Virus record (IMG/VR): IMGVR_UViG_3300036979_000212
Location: 1-26,022 of that record
Strand: one strand, 5' to 3'
Length of the DNA stretch: 26,022 nt
Source: a virus
In this document: positions 13,268 to 23,095 of the stretch, one piece after another
Layout of the letters: the number at the start of each line of letters is the position of its first letter
How positions within the stretch are numbered: position 1 is the first letter of the stretch
Position numbers and translations under genes: made by a program
The notes under the pieces: generated by a model
Seen by the model: only the letters and a program-made list of their open reading frames with translations
The model's database searches: none
Told to the model about the DNA's origin: nothing

Positions 13268-13513
13268 ATGTCTAATATTACCGAGAGGCTTAAGGGGAAA
13301 TTACTAATGCATTTTATAAAAAAAGCATGTCTGGCAATAGATGCATTATCCACTCACTCGTTCAATGGTGGAGATTTGATTAACATTACGTACAAAGCAA
13401 AGCTCAAAGGCAATATACCAAAAGACGCAATGATCGATGTGGACGATATAGATTGGGGAAACATTGAGACGCGAATGGAGGACGAAATCTACAACGCGCC
13501 AGAAGACAACTAA
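13268..13513 (+). CDS. Unknown small acidic protein
   Basis: 81 residues, ATG 13268 after AAAAGGAAAAA (13255-13265). The N-terminal half is basic and partly hydrophobic (LKGKLLMHFIKKACLAIDAL), the end acidic (DAMIDVDDIDWGNIETRMED). A+T-rich compared with both neighbours, so it may be a recent arrival. No family recognised. It is the last gene before the first pentamer array, and its stop codon is followed at once by the long inverted repeat at 13514. Confidence 0.68.
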   Translation: MSNITERLKGKLLMHFIKKACLAIDALSTHSFNGGDLINITYKAKLKGNIPKDAMIDVDDIDWGNIETRMEDEIYNAPEDN

Positions 13514-13581
13514 GTCCATGCCAGGTGCGGTTTTGATCGGCATACGCCGACGCCGCTACGTTAAAGGGGCCTGGCATGGAC
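13514..13581. other. 12-bp perfect inverted repeat at the left border of array 1
   Basis: GTCCATGCCAGG (13514-13525) and CCTGGCATGGAC (13570-13581) are exact complements separated by 44 nt. Inside lies a second hairpin, CGGC-ATAC-GCCG (13538-13549), flanked by GCGG (13527-13530) and CCGC (13553-13556), giving an arm-on-arm structure. It begins right after the stop of the preceding gene and ends ten bases before the first pentamer. It could be an RNA hairpin or a DNA cruciform. Confidence 0.8.
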
Positions 13582-13591
13582 GTAAAAAAAT

Positions 13592-13943
13592 GGCAAGGCA
13601 CGGCGCGGCGCGGCGGGGCACGGCGGGGCCGGGCAGGGCGAGGAACAGGGCTAGGCCGGGCAGGGCGTGGCGGGGCCTGGCGCGGCGTGGCAAGGCTGGG
13701 CAAGGAACAAGGCGTGGCCGGGCGGGGCTTGGCAAGGCAGGGCGAGGAACAAGGCAAGGATGTGGCTGGCGCCGGGGGCGAGCATAATCCCCCCCCCCGG
13801 ATGCGGACTCCCGACGCCAGCAAATACGAGGAACAAGGCAGGGCTTGGCCAGGCGAGGCCAGGCGTGGCAGGGCATGGAACGAGGCCCGGCGTGGCGGGG
13901 CGTGGCTGGGCTCGGCGTGGCGAGGCGAGGAACAAGGCAAGGA
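13592..13943 (+). repeat. GGCNN pentamer array 1
   Basis: A run of GGCNN words with free NN. I count 10, 11 and 7 words separated by GGAACAG, GGAACAA and GGAACAA, then a terminal GGCAAGGA at 13753-13760. A non-repeat island (13761-13829) follows, then a second sub-array with 8 and 9 words and another terminal GGCAAGGA at 13936-13943. GGAAC occurs six times. Long open frames across this region on both strands are by-products of the composition. It lies between the gene ending 13513 and the one starting 14023. Confidence 0.93.
13765..13821. other. Nested hairpin island inside array 1, with a C10 run
   Basis: GCTGGCG (13765-13771) pairs with CGCCAGC (13815-13821), and directly inside it CCGGGGG (13772-13778) pairs with CCCCCGG (13794-13800). 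The inner loop includes part of a ten-base cytosine run at 13789-13798. The 14 nt at 13801-13814 are a bulge. The island lies between two sub-arrays and follows the first terminal GGCAAGGA. Confidence 0.72.
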
Positions 13944-13947
13944 AAAA

Positions 13948-13989
13948 CGTGCATCGTTTTAGCGAGCCGTGGGGCAAGCGCGATGCACG
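13948..13989. other. 9-bp inverted repeat at the right border of array 1
   Basis: CGTGCATCG (13948-13956) and CGATGCACG (13981-13989) are exact complements around a 24-nt loop that itself can pair GCC with GGC. It begins five bases after the terminal GGCAAGGA and ends 17 nt before the ribosome site of the next gene, so it would lie in that gene's leader. Confidence 0.75.
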
Positions 13990-14022
13990 AACAGGGCAAG
14001 CAGAAGAAAGGACGTGGGGAAC

Positions 14023-14685
14023 ATGGATCGATACGAGGTTACTTTGACGGGCTTGACGCCGCTGATCATGCACGCGGATAATTTGGCATTCAGCGAGAAG
14101 GTGAAAGCGTGGCAGAAGGACCCGCAAAACAAGGAGCTGTCCACCGCAGGCGACGACCGAGCGCCTGCTTGGGTGTGGATGGGCTATCTGTATCACGACA
14201 CCAAGGTTATCGGCCTGCCGGCTGACAACCTGATGACGATGCTTCGTGAGGGTGGGGCGAAGGTCATTAACAAGGGCAAAGAGACCTACAAAAAACAGAC
14301 GCAAGCCGGGATCGTGATCGACTCGCAACTGTGGCCGCTTGAGATCCCAAAAGAGGTCGGTGTGAAGCAGTTCAATAACCTGTTCAAGTCGAACGATTTC
14401 ATGGAACATCTTACGGCTGCGGAGAGCGCAGGTTTTGAATTGTTGGTCAAGCGGGCCAAGATCGGGGCGGCAAAGCATGTGCGGGTGCGGCCTCTGTTTC
14501 GCCAGTGGGGCGCGACGGGGACCCTAACCGTGATCGATGCGGAGCTGTCTGGAATCACCAAGCCCGTGCTGCAGAAAATAATGGATGTTGCCGGGTCGCT
14601 GTGCGGCCTGGGCGACTGGAGGCCTTCGAGTCCGAAATCATCTGGGACCTTCGGGCGGTTCAGCGCAACGCTGAAAAAGATTTAA
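14023..14685 (+). CDS. Conserved phage protein of unknown role, RAMP-like pattern
   Basis: 220 residues from ATG 14023, ten bases after GAAAGGA (14006-14012); the in-frame upstream ATG 13969 lacks a site. It begins YEVTLTGLTPLIMHADNLAF and ends GSLCGLGDWRPSSPKSSGTF then GRFSATL. I know this layout from uncharacterised phage proteins. The 'LTPLIMH' beginning, the 'GLPADNLMTMLREG' middle and the glycine-rich 'GLGDWRP…GRF' end recall Cas7-like RAMP folds, but this is a resemblance, not a family match. It lies between arrays 1 and 2. Role unknown; nucleic-acid binding would fit both the fold idea and the setting. Confidence 0.75.
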   Translation: MDRYEVTLTGLTPLIMHADNLAFSEKVKAWQKDPQNKELSTAGDDRAPAWVWMGYLYHDTKVIGLPADNLMTMLREGGAKVINKGKETYKKQTQAGIVIDSQLWPLEIPKEVGVKQFNNLFKSNDFMEHLTAAESAGFELLVKRAKIGAAKHVRVRPLFRQWGATGTLTVIDAELSGITKPVLQKIMDVAGSLCGLGDWRPSSPKSSGTFGRFSATLKKI

Positions 14686-14834
14686 GGCGAGGAACGTGGC
14701 TCGGCAGGGCATGGCAAGGCACGGCGCGGCGCGGCGGGGCTTGGCGTGGCATGGCGGGGCGAGGAACAAGGCGAGGCTCGGCCAGGCTTGGCAGGGCTGG
14801 GCCGGGCTGGGCGAGGCGAGGAACAAGGCGAGGA
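14686..14834 (+). repeat. GGCNN pentamer array 2
   Basis: Starts at the base after the upstream TAA. The order is one GGCGA, GGAACGT, 13 words, GGAACAA, 10 words, GGAACAA, GGCGA, GGA. The word lengths add up exactly to the span. It shares an identical 30-bp stretch with array 1 (14711-14740 equals 13590-13619). It ends with the same 15-bp terminal motif as the other arrays and runs straight into a perfect hairpin. Confidence 0.94.
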
Positions 14835-14857
14835 GCTGCCTGGGTGGGCCAGGCAGC
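14835..14857. other. Perfect 9-bp hairpin closing array 2
   Basis: GCTGCCTGG (14835-14843) and CCAGGCAGC (14849-14857) pair completely around the loop GTGGG. It directly abuts the terminal GGA of array 2. No T-run follows (ATAAAGG), and the ribosome site of the next gene comes within ten bases, so an RNA-end or leader role is more likely than termination. Confidence 0.85.
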
Positions 14858-14876
14858 ATAAAGGAAAGGGATTGAC

Positions 14877-15338
14877 ATGGGTACTGTGAAGGGTGTTTTT
14901 TTCGGTGGGGTTCCAACGGACATTGACCTGCGTTTGCTGCGCGAGGCATTTCCTCCGGCAGAATTGACGGTGGGCAGACTGCTATCGTATCCGTCTGTGG
15001 CCAGGGCGATCAAAAGCGAGGTCGGATCGTGCAGATACAAGACGGTCACAAACCGGTGGCGGAAGGTGTTGGAGGCCGAACACGGGCTGATAGTCGGGAC
15101 GAAGGCCGGCGAGGGGTTCATCGTGCTGGACGACCACGAGAAACTGGACCTATCGAGTTCGAAAATCAGATCGTCACGGCGTGCTGCCAGGCGCTCTCTG
15201 CAGGTGGCCGCAAAGATCGACCGGAAGGCGCTGACAGAGCCAGAACAGCGCGAGCACGACCTGAACACTCTGCGTGCTGCGGCCATCACGGCCACGGCGC
15301 AGATTCGCAAGGCGTTGGACATGCCAAGTCTTGGGTAA
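14877..15338 (+). CDS. Conserved phage protein, probable helical DNA-binding-like
   Basis: 153 residues from ATG 14877, with AAAGGAAAGGG at 14860-14870. The middle has a helix-turn-helix-like layout (RLLSYPSVARAIKSEVGS, then YKTVTNRWRKVLEAEHG) and then GEGFIVLDDHEKL, a wing-like strand pair. The C-terminal third is basic helical (SSKIRSSRRAARRSLQ, then HDLNTLRAAAITATAQIRKA). I believe this is a conserved phage protein found in early regions, though I cannot name it. Its start lies just after array 2 and its stop just before array 3, so it is framed by arrays on both sides. Confidence 0.75.
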   Translation: MGTVKGVFFGGVPTDIDLRLLREAFPPAELTVGRLLSYPSVARAIKSEVGSCRYKTVTNRWRKVLEAEHGLIVGTKAGEGFIVLDDHEKLDLSSSKIRSSRRAARRSLQVAAKIDRKALTEPEQREHDLNTLRAAAITATAQIRKALDMPSLG

Positions 15339-15341
15339 CGA

Positions 15342-15771
15342 GGAACACGGCAAGGCACGGCCGGGCAGGGCTGGGCGGGGCGCGGCGTGGCGCGGCAAGG
15401 CGGGGCAAGGAACACGGCGCGGCGAGGCTGGGCCCGGCCCGGCGCGGCGCGGCGAGGCATGGAACCGGGCGCGGCACGGCGGGGCATGGAACAGGCGCGG
15501 CACGGCGGGGCATGGCAGGGCATGGCGTGGCAAGGCAAGGCGAGGAACATGGCTTGGCGGGGCTTGGCGAGGCGTGGCGCGGCGGGGCGTGGCCTGGCGG
15601 GGCCAGGCAAGGAACAGGGCATGGCCGGGCACGGCCGGGCCTGGCGCGGCGAGGAACAGGGCGGGGCAGGGCAAGGCCGGGCACGGCTGGGCAAGGAACA
15701 GGGCGCGGTGAGGCAAGGCGTGGCTAGGCTTGGCTGGGCACGGCGGGGCCGGGCATGGAACAAGGCAAGGA
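15342..15771 (+). repeat. GGCNN pentamer array 3
   Basis: Begins four bases after the upstream stop. I count 73 words in blocks of 12, 9, 4, 10, 12, 7, 7, 11 and 1, separated by nine GGAACNN spacers, one of them a base short (15488-15493). The counts reproduce the span exactly. One word is off-pattern (GGTGA, in the last long block). A 22-bp stretch at 15468-15489 recurs at 15494-15515. The final GGCAAGGAG supplies a plausible ribosome site for the gene starting at 15781. Confidence 0.94.
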
Positions 15772-15780
15772 GTAAATCTC

Positions 15781-19363: not shown

Positions 19364-19701
19364 CTGCAATAGGCAATGCTTTCGCGAAGTGGTCTCGGTG
19401 CATCTATAAAGGCGCAATTGCCTGCGCCAAGTGTCCGCTGTCGAAAGCGGACCCCGACGAGGGGTGCGACATGGCGGCGGGGCGCACACGGAGTCAGGAG
19501 GCGTTCGCGGCGGGATGGAAGCAGAGCGATCTTGCCTATGTGCCGTTGCCCGATGCGCCGCGTGAAATGGAGCTCGTATGCAATAAATGCGGTCAGATTG
19601 CGGTTGAGTTTGGCATTGCAGGCGAGTGTGGTCGGATTGAGTTGGGCGAGAGGTGCCGGTGTGGCGGAGTGTACCTGCACAAAACGAAAGGTGGTGCGTG
19701 A
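19360..19701 (+). CDS. Zinc-binding accessory protein ending TKGGA
   Basis: 113 residues. Cysteine groups: CIYKGAIACAKC (14-25), CDMAAG, CNKCG (74-78) and CRCGG (about 101-105), suggesting two zinc sites. ATG 19360 is preceded by AAAGGAGG (19345-19352). The last residues TKGGA come from the second family A junction. The middle (EAFAAGWKQSDLAYVPLPDA) has no motif that I know. It is coupled by TGATG to a start at 19701 in the frame of the helicase. Confidence 0.75.
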   Translation: MTAIGNAFAKWSRCIYKGAIACAKCPLSKADPDEGCDMAAGRTRSQEAFAAGWKQSDLAYVPLPDAPREMELVCNKCGQIAVEFGIAGECGRIELGERCRCGGVYLHKTKGGA

Positions 19702-19844
19702 TGGACACGCGGACCGGTGAAATCCTTACAGAAGCAGAGGCAAAGTTGCGTGCTGGTCGCTCAAGGCAAAGGAGGTCGAGGATGGACAAAGAACTTAGGC
19801 GATTGCTGATGGAATTAACGAAAGAAGAGAAAGGAGGTCGAGGG

Positions 19845-21200
19845 ATGAATTACGAGGCGTTTTTGGAAGCGAAAACCCACGTCGGCGCAGAGCACGGATT
19901 TGACCCGCTATGGATGCCGGATAGCCTGTTTCCATTCCAGGTGGCGCTGGTGGAGTGGGCCTGCAGGAAAGGCCGCGCGGCGATTTTTGCAGACTGTGGA
20001 CTTGGCAAGACGCCGATGCAGCTTGTATGGGCGGAGAATGTGGCGAGGAAGACCGACGGGCGCGTGCTGATCCTGACTCCTCTGGCGGTAGCATTTCAGA
20101 CCGTGCGTGAGGGAGAGAAGTTCGGCATTGAGGTGGTGCATCGGCGTGAAGGACTGCAAGATGGTGATAGGATCGTAGTCGCCAACTATGAGCGACTGCA
20201 TTATTTCAATGCTGAAGATTTTCAGGGCGTGGTGTGCGACGAAAGCGGCATCCTGAAAAATTTCAATGGATCGACACGTAGGGCAATAACGGACTTCATG
20301 CGGAAGCGCCCATATCGACTGCTTTGCACGGCAACGGCAGCGCCGAATGACTACATGGAACTGGGGACAAGTAGCGAGGCTCTTGGAGTCATGGAGCGCA
20401 AGCACATGCTGGCGCAATTCTTCACGCACGACGGAGGCGATACGGCTAAATGGAGAATTAAGGGCCATGCCCGTGAGCATCTATTTTGGAGATGGATTTG
20501 CTCTTGGGCCAGGGCGATGCGAAATCCTTCGGATTTGGGATTTATAGATACCGCATTCAACCTGCCATCATTGCATACAAGGCAGCATCTCGTGAAGGCA
20601 TCGCAACCACTTGATGGATACTTGTTTGACATGCCTGCTGTTGGGCTGGACGAGCAAAGGGCAGACCTAAGGCGAACGATGGATGAGCGCTGCGGGATGG
20701 TAGTGGATTTATGCAACGCCCACAATAATCCATCGGTATGTTGGACAAATTTAAACGCTGAGGCGGATGCTATTGCAAAGGCGACGCGTGGGGCTGTAAA
20801 TGTACAGGGGTCAGATAGTGATGAGGCGAAGGAAAATGCATTTGCGGCTTTTGCCAAGGGTGAAATTCGCGTAATCGTCAGCAAGCCATCGATTGCAGGA
20901 TTTGGCCTAAACTGGCAACATTGCGCGCATATGACGTTTTTTCCATCACACTCATATGAACAGTATTATCAGTGTGTGCGCCGCTGTTGGAGGTTTGGTC
21001 AGCGTCGCGATGTCACTGTTGATATTGTAACGACTGACGGGCAGAGCAACGTACTGTGCAATATGCAGCGCAAGGCCGATGCTGCATCAAAGATGTTTGA
21101 ACAGATTGTAGCGCTGTTGCGCGAGGAATTACGCATTACAAAAACAGCTGGATACACGAAGAAAGAGGAGGTTCCGTCATGGCTGTGCGAGATCAAGTAA
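19845..21200 (+). CDS. SNF2/DEAD-type helicase of phage
   Basis: 451 residues from ATG 19845. Helicase motifs: DCGLGKT (50-56), DESG (132-135) in VVCDESGILKN, LLCTATAAPNDYMELG (motif III), and the C-terminal VIVSKPSIAGFGLNWQ and QCVRRCWRFGQ (motifs V and VI). I choose 19845 because MNYEAFLEAKTHVGAEHGFD matches family N-termini as I recall them, and AAAGGAGG precedes it. Two earlier in-frame starts, 19701 (behind junction A) and 19782 (behind a family B copy), would add 48 or 21 residues. It overlaps the methyltransferase gene by 22 nt; the two probably act together on phage DNA. It lacks a nuclease domain. Confidence 0.9.
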   Translation: MNYEAFLEAKTHVGAEHGFDPLWMPDSLFPFQVALVEWACRKGRAAIFADCGLGKTPMQLVWAENVARKTDGRVLILTPLAVAFQTVREGEKFGIEVVHRREGLQDGDRIVVANYERLHYFNAEDFQGVVCDESGILKNFNGSTRRAITDFMRKRPYRLLCTATAAPNDYMELGTSSEALGVMERKHMLAQFFTHDGGDTAKWRIKGHAREHLFWRWICSWARAMRNPSDLGFIDTAFNLPSLHTRQHLVKASQPLDGYLFDMPAVGLDEQRADLRRTMDERCGMVVDLCNAHNNPSVCWTNLNAEADAIAKATRGAVNVQGSDSDEAKENAFAAFAKGEIRVIVSKPSIAGFGLNWQHCAHMTFFPSHSYEQYYQCVRRCWRFGQRRDVTVDIVTTDGQSNVLCNMQRKADAASKMFEQIVALLREELRITKTAGYTKKEEVPSWLCEIK

Positions 21201-22117
21201 TCAAAGAGCGTTATGCTCTCTACAATGGGGATTCGTGCGAAGTGCTGAGAACCATGCCAGATGCGAGCATAGATTTCAGCGTCTTCAGTCCACCATTTGC
21301 AGATCTATACTGCTACAGCGACAGTCCGGCAGACCTTGGCAACTGTCGCACATACGATGAATTCTTTCAGCATTTTGGGTTTATCATCAGCGAGATTGCG
21401 CGAGTCATAAAGCCAGGAAGGCTATGCGCCGTACACTGCATCGACATTCCAGCGATGAAAGAACGCGATGGATATATCGGACTCAAAGACTTTCCAGGTG
21501 ATATTATACGGGCGTTTCAATCTTCTGGCATGATTTATCACTCCAGGCACGCGATATGGAAAGACCCGCTGATTGAGGCGACGCGAACGAAGGCGCTTGG
21601 GTTAATGCATAAGCAGTTGTGCAAGGATTCGACGGCATGCAGGAGTGGTCTGCCTGATTACCTCTTGGCGTTTCGCGCTCCAGGAGAAAATGCTATTCCA
21701 GTTACACATCCGAATGGTCTAACAAAATACTGTGGACGGACGGATCCTGGAGGCGAAGGGATCAAGCGATCGCATAATATTTGGCGCGCCTATGCATCGC
21801 CGGTGTGGATGGATATCAGACAAACACATACGCTTGATGCAAGAAAGGCGCGAGATCCTGAAGACGAAAAACATCTTTGCCCGCTCCAACTCGACGTGAT
21901 CGAGAGGGCCTGCGTGCTGTGGTCAAATCCTGGCGAGGTCGTTTTGACGCCATTCATGGGCGTGGGATCTGAGGTTTACGGGGCCGTGCTGAATGGTCGG
22001 CGCGGGATCGGCATCGAACTGAAGCCGTCCTATTACTCGCAGGCGGTAAAAAACCTTGCGGAATGCAAGCCTGAGTTGGACCAGGGGACGCTGTTCGAAA
22101 CCTTTGACGAAAAGTGA
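21179..22117 (+). CDS. DNA methyltransferase, beta-class (SPPF)
   Basis: 312 residues, ATG 21179 behind GAGGAGG. The catalytic SPPF is at 37-40 and the S-adenosylmethionine motif PFMGVG at about 258-263, followed by GRRGIGIELKPSYYSQA. Catalytic motif first and cofactor motif last is the beta-class order, for adenine-N6 or cytosine-N4 methylation; which one I cannot say. The target recognition part would lie between (about 100-220). No restriction nuclease is next to it, so it may protect phage DNA from host restriction, together with the helicase just upstream. Confidence 0.88.
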   Translation: MAVRDQVIKERYALYNGDSCEVLRTMPDASIDFSVFSPPFADLYCYSDSPADLGNCRTYDEFFQHFGFIISEIARVIKPGRLCAVHCIDIPAMKERDGYIGLKDFPGDIIRAFQSSGMIYHSRHAIWKDPLIEATRTKALGLMHKQLCKDSTACRSGLPDYLLAFRAPGENAIPVTHPNGLTKYCGRTDPGGEGIKRSHNIWRAYASPVWMDIRQTHTLDARKARDPEDEKHLCPLQLDVIERACVLWSNPGEVVLTPFMGVGSEVYGAVLNGRRGIGIELKPSYYSQAVKNLAECKPELDQGTLFETFDEK

Positions 22118-22285: not shown

Positions 22286-23095
22286 ATGAAAATCAAGAAC
22301 TGGAAGAAGTTTCAGCATTTCAAGGATCGTAAACCACCGTGGATTAAACTTTATCGCGACATTCTCGACGATGTTGATATCAACATGATATCAGACCGAT
22401 GTTTTCGTGTTATCATCATGTTATGGCTTATCGCGAGTGAAGATCCAAGCCGTGAGGGTAATTTGCCAGCGCTTCGCAAGCTCGCATTTCGTTTGCGAAT
22501 GAGCGAGGCGACATTAGTCGAGATTATTAAAGGACTTACGGAGTTTATTGAGTTTGATGATATCGACTTGATATCAACACGATATCAACATGATACACCA
22601 GAGACAGAGACAGAGACAGAGATAGAGACAGAGAATAAACACCACTTGTCCGATTCAATCGGACGTGATGATGTTTCGAAAACATCAACAGATGGTTGCC
22701 ATGAACAAAAAAAGGCAAAGACACCTCGCCGGCCAAAAAAGGCAATCGTTTACGATCCGGCAATTATTGCCATATACGAGGCCTATCCGAAAAAGGTCGG
22801 CAGGGCGGTGGCGTTGGCGTCGATCCAGAGTGCAATTGAACGCGGACATGCTGCTGATGCCATTTTGGAGGCAACCAAGGCCTACGCCGCGTCACCCATG
22901 GTGCAAACGACGGAGCTTCAGTTCATCCCCAACCCGTCAACGTTTTTCAACCAGGACCGTTTTTTGGATGATCGGTCAAACTGGAACCAGGTGCGCTCAA
23001 ACGGAAGCGAACGCCAGGGCGGCGGCATGGTGGCATGTGTGGACGATGGGATCTCGGATGGTTACGAGTCGATGTTTGGATCTGTCAATTTTTGA
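22286..23095 (+). CDS. Replication initiator protein (lambda O / DnaD-like)
   Basis: 269 residues, ATG 22286, GGAGG at 22272-22276. The N-terminus (KIKNWKKFQHFKDRKPPWIK, then LYRDILDD) is that of phage replication proteins with a winged-helix DNA-binding part. An acidic-threonine run, TETETEIETE (about 107-116), is encoded by six AGAGAC-like units. The C-terminal FIPNPSTFFNQDRFLDD (near 225-240) is usual for proteins that load the replication complex. Repeats inside the gene (see iterons) and a DnaC-like loader gene downstream strongly support an origin-binding role. The gene is shorter and less G+C-rich than its neighbours. Confidence 0.88.
   Translation: MKIKNWKKFQHFKDRKPPWIKLYRDILDDVDINMISDRCFRVIIMLWLIASEDPSREGNLPALRKLAFRLRMSEATLVEIIKGLTEFIEFDDIDLISTRYQHDTPETETETEIETENKHHLSDSIGRDDVSKTSTDGCHEQKKAKTPRRPKKAIVYDPAIIAIYEAYPKKVGRAVALASIQSAIERGHAADAILEATKAYAASPMVQTTELQFIPNPSTFFNQDRFLDDRSNWNQVRSNGSERQGGGMVACVDDGISDGYESMFGSVNF
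22376..22397 (+). repeat. Origin-like iterons, upstream pair
   Basis: Two 11-bp units, GATATCAACAT (22376-22386) and GATATCAGACC (22387-22397). With the preceding TT they also include the palindrome TTGATATCAA at 22374-22383. They lie inside the replication initiator gene. The unit length is not a multiple of three, so the repeat is not kept by protein sequence. Confidence 0.72.
22559..22595 (+). repeat. Origin-like iterons, downstream group
   Basis: Three adjacent 11-bp units, GATATCGACTT (22559-22569), GATATCAACAC (22570-22580) and GATATCAACAT (22581-22591), followed by a partial GATA (22592-22595). A second TTGATATCAA palindrome is at 22568-22577. They sit just before the AGAGAC run. The period of about one helix turn suits side-by-side binding of an initiator. 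Confidence 0.75.
22600..22635 (+). repeat. AGAGAC simple repeat
   Basis: Six tandem hexamers, four AGAGAC and two single-base variants (AGAGAT, AGAGAA), read as alternating Glu-Thr. It directly follows the downstream iterons inside the initiator gene. It may link two protein domains and could also be prone to slippage. Confidence 0.85.

Follow-up and report, generated by a model that had tools for sequence, protein, structure and literature searches.

The 26,022-nt stretch of viral DNA analysed here (IMG/VR record IMGVR_UViG_3300036979_000212; hereafter the window) very probably carries a tailed-phage VIPR locus, in which three intergenic arrays of GGCNN words would supply guide RNAs to a Vipr protein directed against competing phages and prophages. 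VIPR, described in a 2026 preprint, pairs Vipr with vrRNAs in which GGY and NN words alternate. Their NN letters read the target DNA, passing over one base per word, and direct Vipr to the DNA of competing phages; the natural targets are mostly satellites and prophages (PMC13142463). Its reported traits are a Vipr of ~20 kDa, tandem YNNGG repeats, 9–16 repeats per vrRNA and an invariable 3′ tail, and RNA binding, the 1-nt skip rule, DNA binding and repression were all shown for the SUSP1 system (PMC13142463). The window has a RAMP-homologous Vipr, GGY words with hypervariable NN, a probable vap gene beside vipr and intergenic arrays flanking vipr. The initial annotation had regarded the arrays as a candidate for an undescribed system; given the Vipr homology, including a profile match to PDB 36pp, and the published description of VIPR (PMC13142463), they are not one. 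With this locus, an uncultivated phage has a large bank of about 15 guides of an RNA-guided system that has only just been described.

Architecture of the arrays and the genes between them

The GGCNN words are positioned between ORFs, in three gaps of the window (13514–14022, 14686–14876 and 15339–15780). A tokeniser counted 146 of them (49/25/72), two of array 1's 49 sitting in a hairpin insert, which leaves 47/25/72 without them; the earlier count of 47/25/73 (145) differs by no more than one or two words. The other features first described for the arrays were confirmed on recounting: all 16 NN dinucleotides are present, 18 GGAAC breaks interrupt the words, one of them (at 15488, the site of a 27-bp duplication) with a one-base spacer, and the orientation is single, an 8-word pattern having 36 matches on the forward strand and none on the reverse, and a reversed-pattern control none at all. 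The words are nearly all GGC and fit the GGY/NN scheme, with GGT variants frequent in relatives.

All array features lie on the + strand. Array 1 is preceded by a hairpin at 13514–13581 with a 12-bp stem, GTCCATGCCAGG/CCTGGCATGGAC (RNA fold z −3.1 on 13510–13578), and is divided into array 1a (13592–13750; three vrRNA-like units, 28 GGCNN words; GGAAC at 13642, 13704 and 13746) and array 1b (13830–13942; two vrRNA-like units; GGAAC at 13830, 13877 and 13929) by the hairpin insert at 13765–13821, which folds with a z of only −0.7 and is nearly identical in the related locus L045. A hairpin at 13948–13989 (z −3.5), near-identical in L045, separates array 1 from vipr. Array 2 (14686–14829) holds two vrRNA-like units, the first of 13 words and the second of 10, together with end junctions and GGAAC at 14691, 14763 and 14820, and is followed by a hairpin at 14835–14857 (z −3.5) that differs from L045 by one base. 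Array 3 (15342–15771) contains eight vrRNA-like units, ~72 words and nine GGAAC, and ends in GGCAAGGAG, which can serve as a possible Shine-Dalgarno sequence for the downstream gene. In general, the arrays end in GGAACAAGGCRAGGA, followed by hairpins or a ribosome site, and of the four hairpins only the insert in array 1 does not fold more stably than shuffled sequence, the others having z of about −3.1 to −3.5. An Rfam search of the window region and 13 other loci returned no match; in particular, no hammerhead reached the gathering score.

Over the 142 GGAAC sites in the window's group, GGC positions carry ~1.1–1.8 bits per position and NN mostly near 0–0.1 bits, with the junction GGC-RA-GGAAC-R as the exception. 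Successive GGAAC sites mostly lie 42–72 nt apart and follow, with few exceptions, a 5n+7 ladder in steps of five, so that a unit comprises 7–13 words (usually 7–12) with a mostly constant final word; several units are shorter than nine words, against the 9–16 repeats of VIPR vrRNAs. Only the short constant junction lies between units, hairpins being confined to the array ends and the one insert. Most likely, one GGAAC-bounded unit corresponds to one guide, and the phage most likely carries about 15 of them.

Decoded as NN words, usually with a constant final RA, the units of array 1 read AA AC GC GC GG AC GG CG AG GA (13592), TA CG AG GT GG CT GC GT AA TG AA (13649), GT CG GG TT AA AG GA (13711), AG TT CA GA CA GT AG AT (13837) and CC GT GG GT TG TC GT GA GA (13884). 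Those of array 2 read TC AG AT AA AC GC GC GG TT GT AT GG GA (14698) and GA TC CA TT AG TG CG TG GA GA (14770). Array 3 gives AA AC CG AG TG GG GC GT GC AA GG AA (15349), GC GA TG CC CC GC GC GA AT (15416), GC AC GG AT (15468), GC AC GG AT AG AT GT AA AA GA (15494), TT GG TT GA GT GC GG GT CT GG CA AA (15551), AT CG AC CG CT GC GA (15618), GG AG AA CG AC TG AA (15660) and GC GA AA GT TA TT TG AC GG CG AT (15702), the register of the last crossing a GGTGA word. At 15461–15515, the four-word unit GC AC GG AT recurs as the start of the next unit behind a one-base GGAACA spacer, which looks like a product of unequal recombination inside a guide array.

The gene between arrays 1 and 2 (14023–14685, +) encodes a 220-aa protein that, by sequence homology, is Vipr, a RAMP-like protein whose guide-RNA binding is predicted from the same homology. 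Its family profile matched PDB 36pp ('SUSP1 Vipr protein') with an E of 2.1e-42, and the window protein alone did so with an E of 9.6e-11. An AF2 model (pLDDT 92.8) retrieved CRISPR RAMPs of type III-A (Csm3) and type VII (Cas7) in Foldseek. PHROG 4652, listed as of unknown function, was matched by 66 of the 68 aligned family members, and a Pfam search of the family yielded nothing meaningful. The window Vipr has in common with Csm3/Cas7, the backbone of type III-A and VII CRISPR complexes, the RAMP fold and a glycine-rich C-terminal motif (GLGxxRP...FGRF); Csm3 and Cas7 polymerise on guide RNA, and by analogy the window Vipr may do likewise. Unlike type III-A and VII CRISPR, however, the locus is without crRNA repeats, spacers and other cas genes, and its guide would be non-contiguous; a search for class 1 CRISPR-Cas features found no repeat-spacer array in the region. 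The neighbouring genes are of the exonuclease-family, resolvase-like and HTH kinds.

The 153-aa product of the gene between arrays 2 and 3 (14877–15338, +) is probably a vap1-like accessory protein, judging from family profile matches to SUSP1 agp038, the gene directly 3′ of vipr (58.9 bits), and to LittleE gp33 (84.4 bits). From its position, agp038 would be the vap1 of PMC13142463. The AF2 model of the window protein (pLDDT 89) gave weak winged-helix-like matches only in Foldseek.

Recurrence of the arrays and turnover of the guides

As the initial annotation had proposed, we searched for the array pattern elsewhere and tabulated its gene context, and the arrays indeed recur. The exact pattern (GGCNN)7-GGAACNN-(GGCNN)3 was present in 22 IMG/VR stretches and a run of 12 plain GGCNN words in at least 120, far more than chance would give. 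Among 84,980 species genomes, the GGAAC form occurred once, in a Verrucomicrobia bin (contig of 4.7 kb). Arrays of at least 10 words occupied a single strand in each of the fetched loci; the loci span a GC of 0.36–0.76, and the break word varies by lineage, being GGAACNN in the window's group and others elsewhere. When the window genes were compared with all ORFs of the 141 fetched array loci, the 14023–14685 gene was found in 64 by single sequence and in 107 by the Vipr profile; of the latter, 106 share the strand of the array and 87 lie within 150 bp of an array. By comparison, the recombination genes upstream of the window arrays recurred in only 3–5 loci, and none of 20 unrelated IMG/VR contigs contained the Vipr family. 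Many of the 34 loci without Vipr have arrays at contig ends, lie on short contigs or are microsatellites, a handful of the IMG/VR matches being true microsatellites (L090, L104, L130 and L137). From sequence alone, array plus Vipr is widespread in phages, with at least 107 loci.

Among the relatives, L045 carries the same locus, with a Vipr 98% identical in protein and with vipr and vap 94.7% and 91.8% identical in DNA. The GGC frame is kept and the flanking hairpins are nearly identical, but the guides of the two match no better than shuffled words (3.13 versus 2.99, sd 0.16), and a single one of the ~15 window guides is common to both (unit 13884, six consecutive words GT GG GT TG TC GT). 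The arrays also differ in length (array 2, 145 versus 304 nt; array 3, 443 versus 251 nt). Given that vipr third codon positions differ at only 26 of 221 sites while the guides stand at the shuffled level, the difference reflects guide replacement rather than drift of NN. Of the two suggestions in the initial annotation, selection on the GGC spacing is borne out, and an NN free to drift is not: whole guides are replaced between relatives with genes 92–95% identical in DNA, and NN would carry the guide information. Other close pairs, with Vipr 88–96% identical, have 0–2 six-word strings in common. In the related phages L031, L038 and L046, near-identical guides (CC AG GG GT TT TA AG and variants) stand among others that mostly differ, which suggests a common target.

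These comparisons bear on three other readings of the arrays. That they are parts of protein genes would agree with the long ORFs that cross them, with the CDS annotated over the array of phage Donkeykong and with the depletion of TA words; all frames through (GGCNN)n are nearly open, since the one stop that they can form requires TA as NN in one phase. Array lengths and NN letters change relative to L045 next to flanking genes that are 92–95% identical, units of 5n+7 nt shift the frame freely, the arrays follow stop codons and precede ribosome sites, and no conserved product emerged from the window/L045 comparison, which together make this reading highly improbable. We give still less credence to a neutral degenerate microsatellite produced by slippage and subsequent drift, despite the segment duplications within the window arrays (TRF periods 27, 42 and 62) and the few true microsatellites among the IMG/VR matches (such as L090 and L104). 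Slippage does not account for a GGC that is kept beside near-random NN, on one strand and over GC contents of 0.36–0.76, and the reading is refuted by the association with a single protein family in 107 of 141 loci; guides that match no better than shuffled, where vipr third positions differ at 26 of 221 sites, also speak against it. The early view that the GGC spacing is constrained and that the arrays belong to a functional system is borne out.

TRAP binds (G/U)AG triplets with 2-nt spacers, in the same 5-nt register as GGCNN. An RNA decoy or attenuator of this kind, in which a ring protein on spaced triplets regulates the next gene and NN is a meaningless spacer, would also suit arrays that directly precede ribosome sites. 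Yet the associated protein is a RAMP rather than TRAP, and related phages have 64 7-word guide strings in common against 0.1 after shuffling (most of them from near-identical contigs), as expected if NN is informative; we regard such a decoy as very improbable, on a par with the protein-gene reading. A product of a diversity-generating retroelement was set aside, the As of GGAAC being kept, as were G-quadruplex arrays and a CsrA decoy after consideration.

If the locus is a VIPR system, as we favour, the GGAAC-linked guide banks could be actively rebuilt by gain and loss of whole units so rapid that phages with 88–98% identical Vipr share at most one or two guides. This would imply some process of guide acquisition or exchange in a system that lacks Cas1-like genes, with GGCRAGGAAC as both processing and recombination site, a proposal that we put forward only tentatively. 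The window/L045 pair constitutes a natural experiment on the turnover rate of VIPR guides, and such pairs make the origin of new guides testable.

Comparison with known VIPR loci and a proposed mechanism

The window resembles the SUSP1 system (PMC13142463; PDB 36pp) in its Vipr homologue, its vap1-like gene, the sense GGY/NN arrays flanking these genes and its location in a phage. By contrast, almost every word in the window is GGC, the ~15 units are linked through the 7-nt GGAACNN and have no long structured 3′ tail of the SUSP1 kind between them, and an array lies between vipr and vap, which are adjacent in SUSP1. The closest architecture is probably that of the 'staggered arrays with overlapping vrRNAs' named in the preprint (PMC13142463), which likewise place several guides in an uninterrupted array, and the window's compact arrays, with several guides linked by GGAAC, may be an instance of them; we claim no new VIPR variant.

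GGYNN arrays flank vipr in both SUSP1 and LittleE, and in the mycobacteriophages LittleE and Donkeykong they adjoin a Vipr homologue as in the window, although with different break words. Arrays of LittleE and L060 alternate with small T-arm-like stem-loops (GGTTCGACTCC / GGTTCGAGTCC; L060 6920–7220, L185 2300–4012); ARAGORN did not call those of L060 as tRNAs, and they are possibly tRNA-like vrRNA processing signals. In Mycobacterium phage Donkeykong (L053), the annotated hypothetical protein gp48 covers the array (2482–2868) and is most likely no true gene but the open frame of a vrRNA array. An AT-rich phage (L150, GC 0.36) has a constant element, GGCAAAACATAGCAAGGCAAGGTATTTTATGATCAT, between units, a candidate vrRNA tail.

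In the mechanism that we propose for the window, the arrays would be transcribed along with the operon and yield guide RNAs (vrRNAs), their boundaries set, we infer, by processing at or near GGAAC. Vipr, as a Cas7-like RAMP, would bind the guide RNA with one subunit per 5-nt word, holding GGC as a scaffold while each NN points outward. Successive NN pairs would then read DNA as NNxNNxNN, one base being skipped per word, and Vipr, aided by Vap, would be brought onto genes of competing phages or prophages, resulting in their shut-off. Which targets the window phage would address was sought with six window guides, whose exact cores gave 0 matches in IMG/VR or matches with non-matching flanking words, and by comparing 424 guides with the fetched loci (1.2 Mb) at skips of 0–3 nt, where nothing rose above chance and no rule stood out. 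By likelihood, codon positions 1+2 account for the composition of NN better than the other phases do, a fit also reported for VIPR targets (PMC13142463), and TA words are depleted among NN (observed/expected 0.55). Within-locus shuffling was not specific for phase 1+2, other phases giving signal too, so the fit serves as a hint only.

Elsewhere in the window, a 63-bp unit stands in three exact copies at the contig start (1–190); the copies keep the frame of an ORF and could reflect either an artefact of assembly or a repeat protein. Two short tandem repeats at 22557–22634 (an 11-bp unit and CAGAGA ×6) lie within an ORF and encode a Thr-Glu repeat. The genes for a DEAD/helicase and, after it, an N6/N4 DNA methylase occupy 19692–22117, the closest match of the helicase being Synechococcus phage S-H1 (57% identity).
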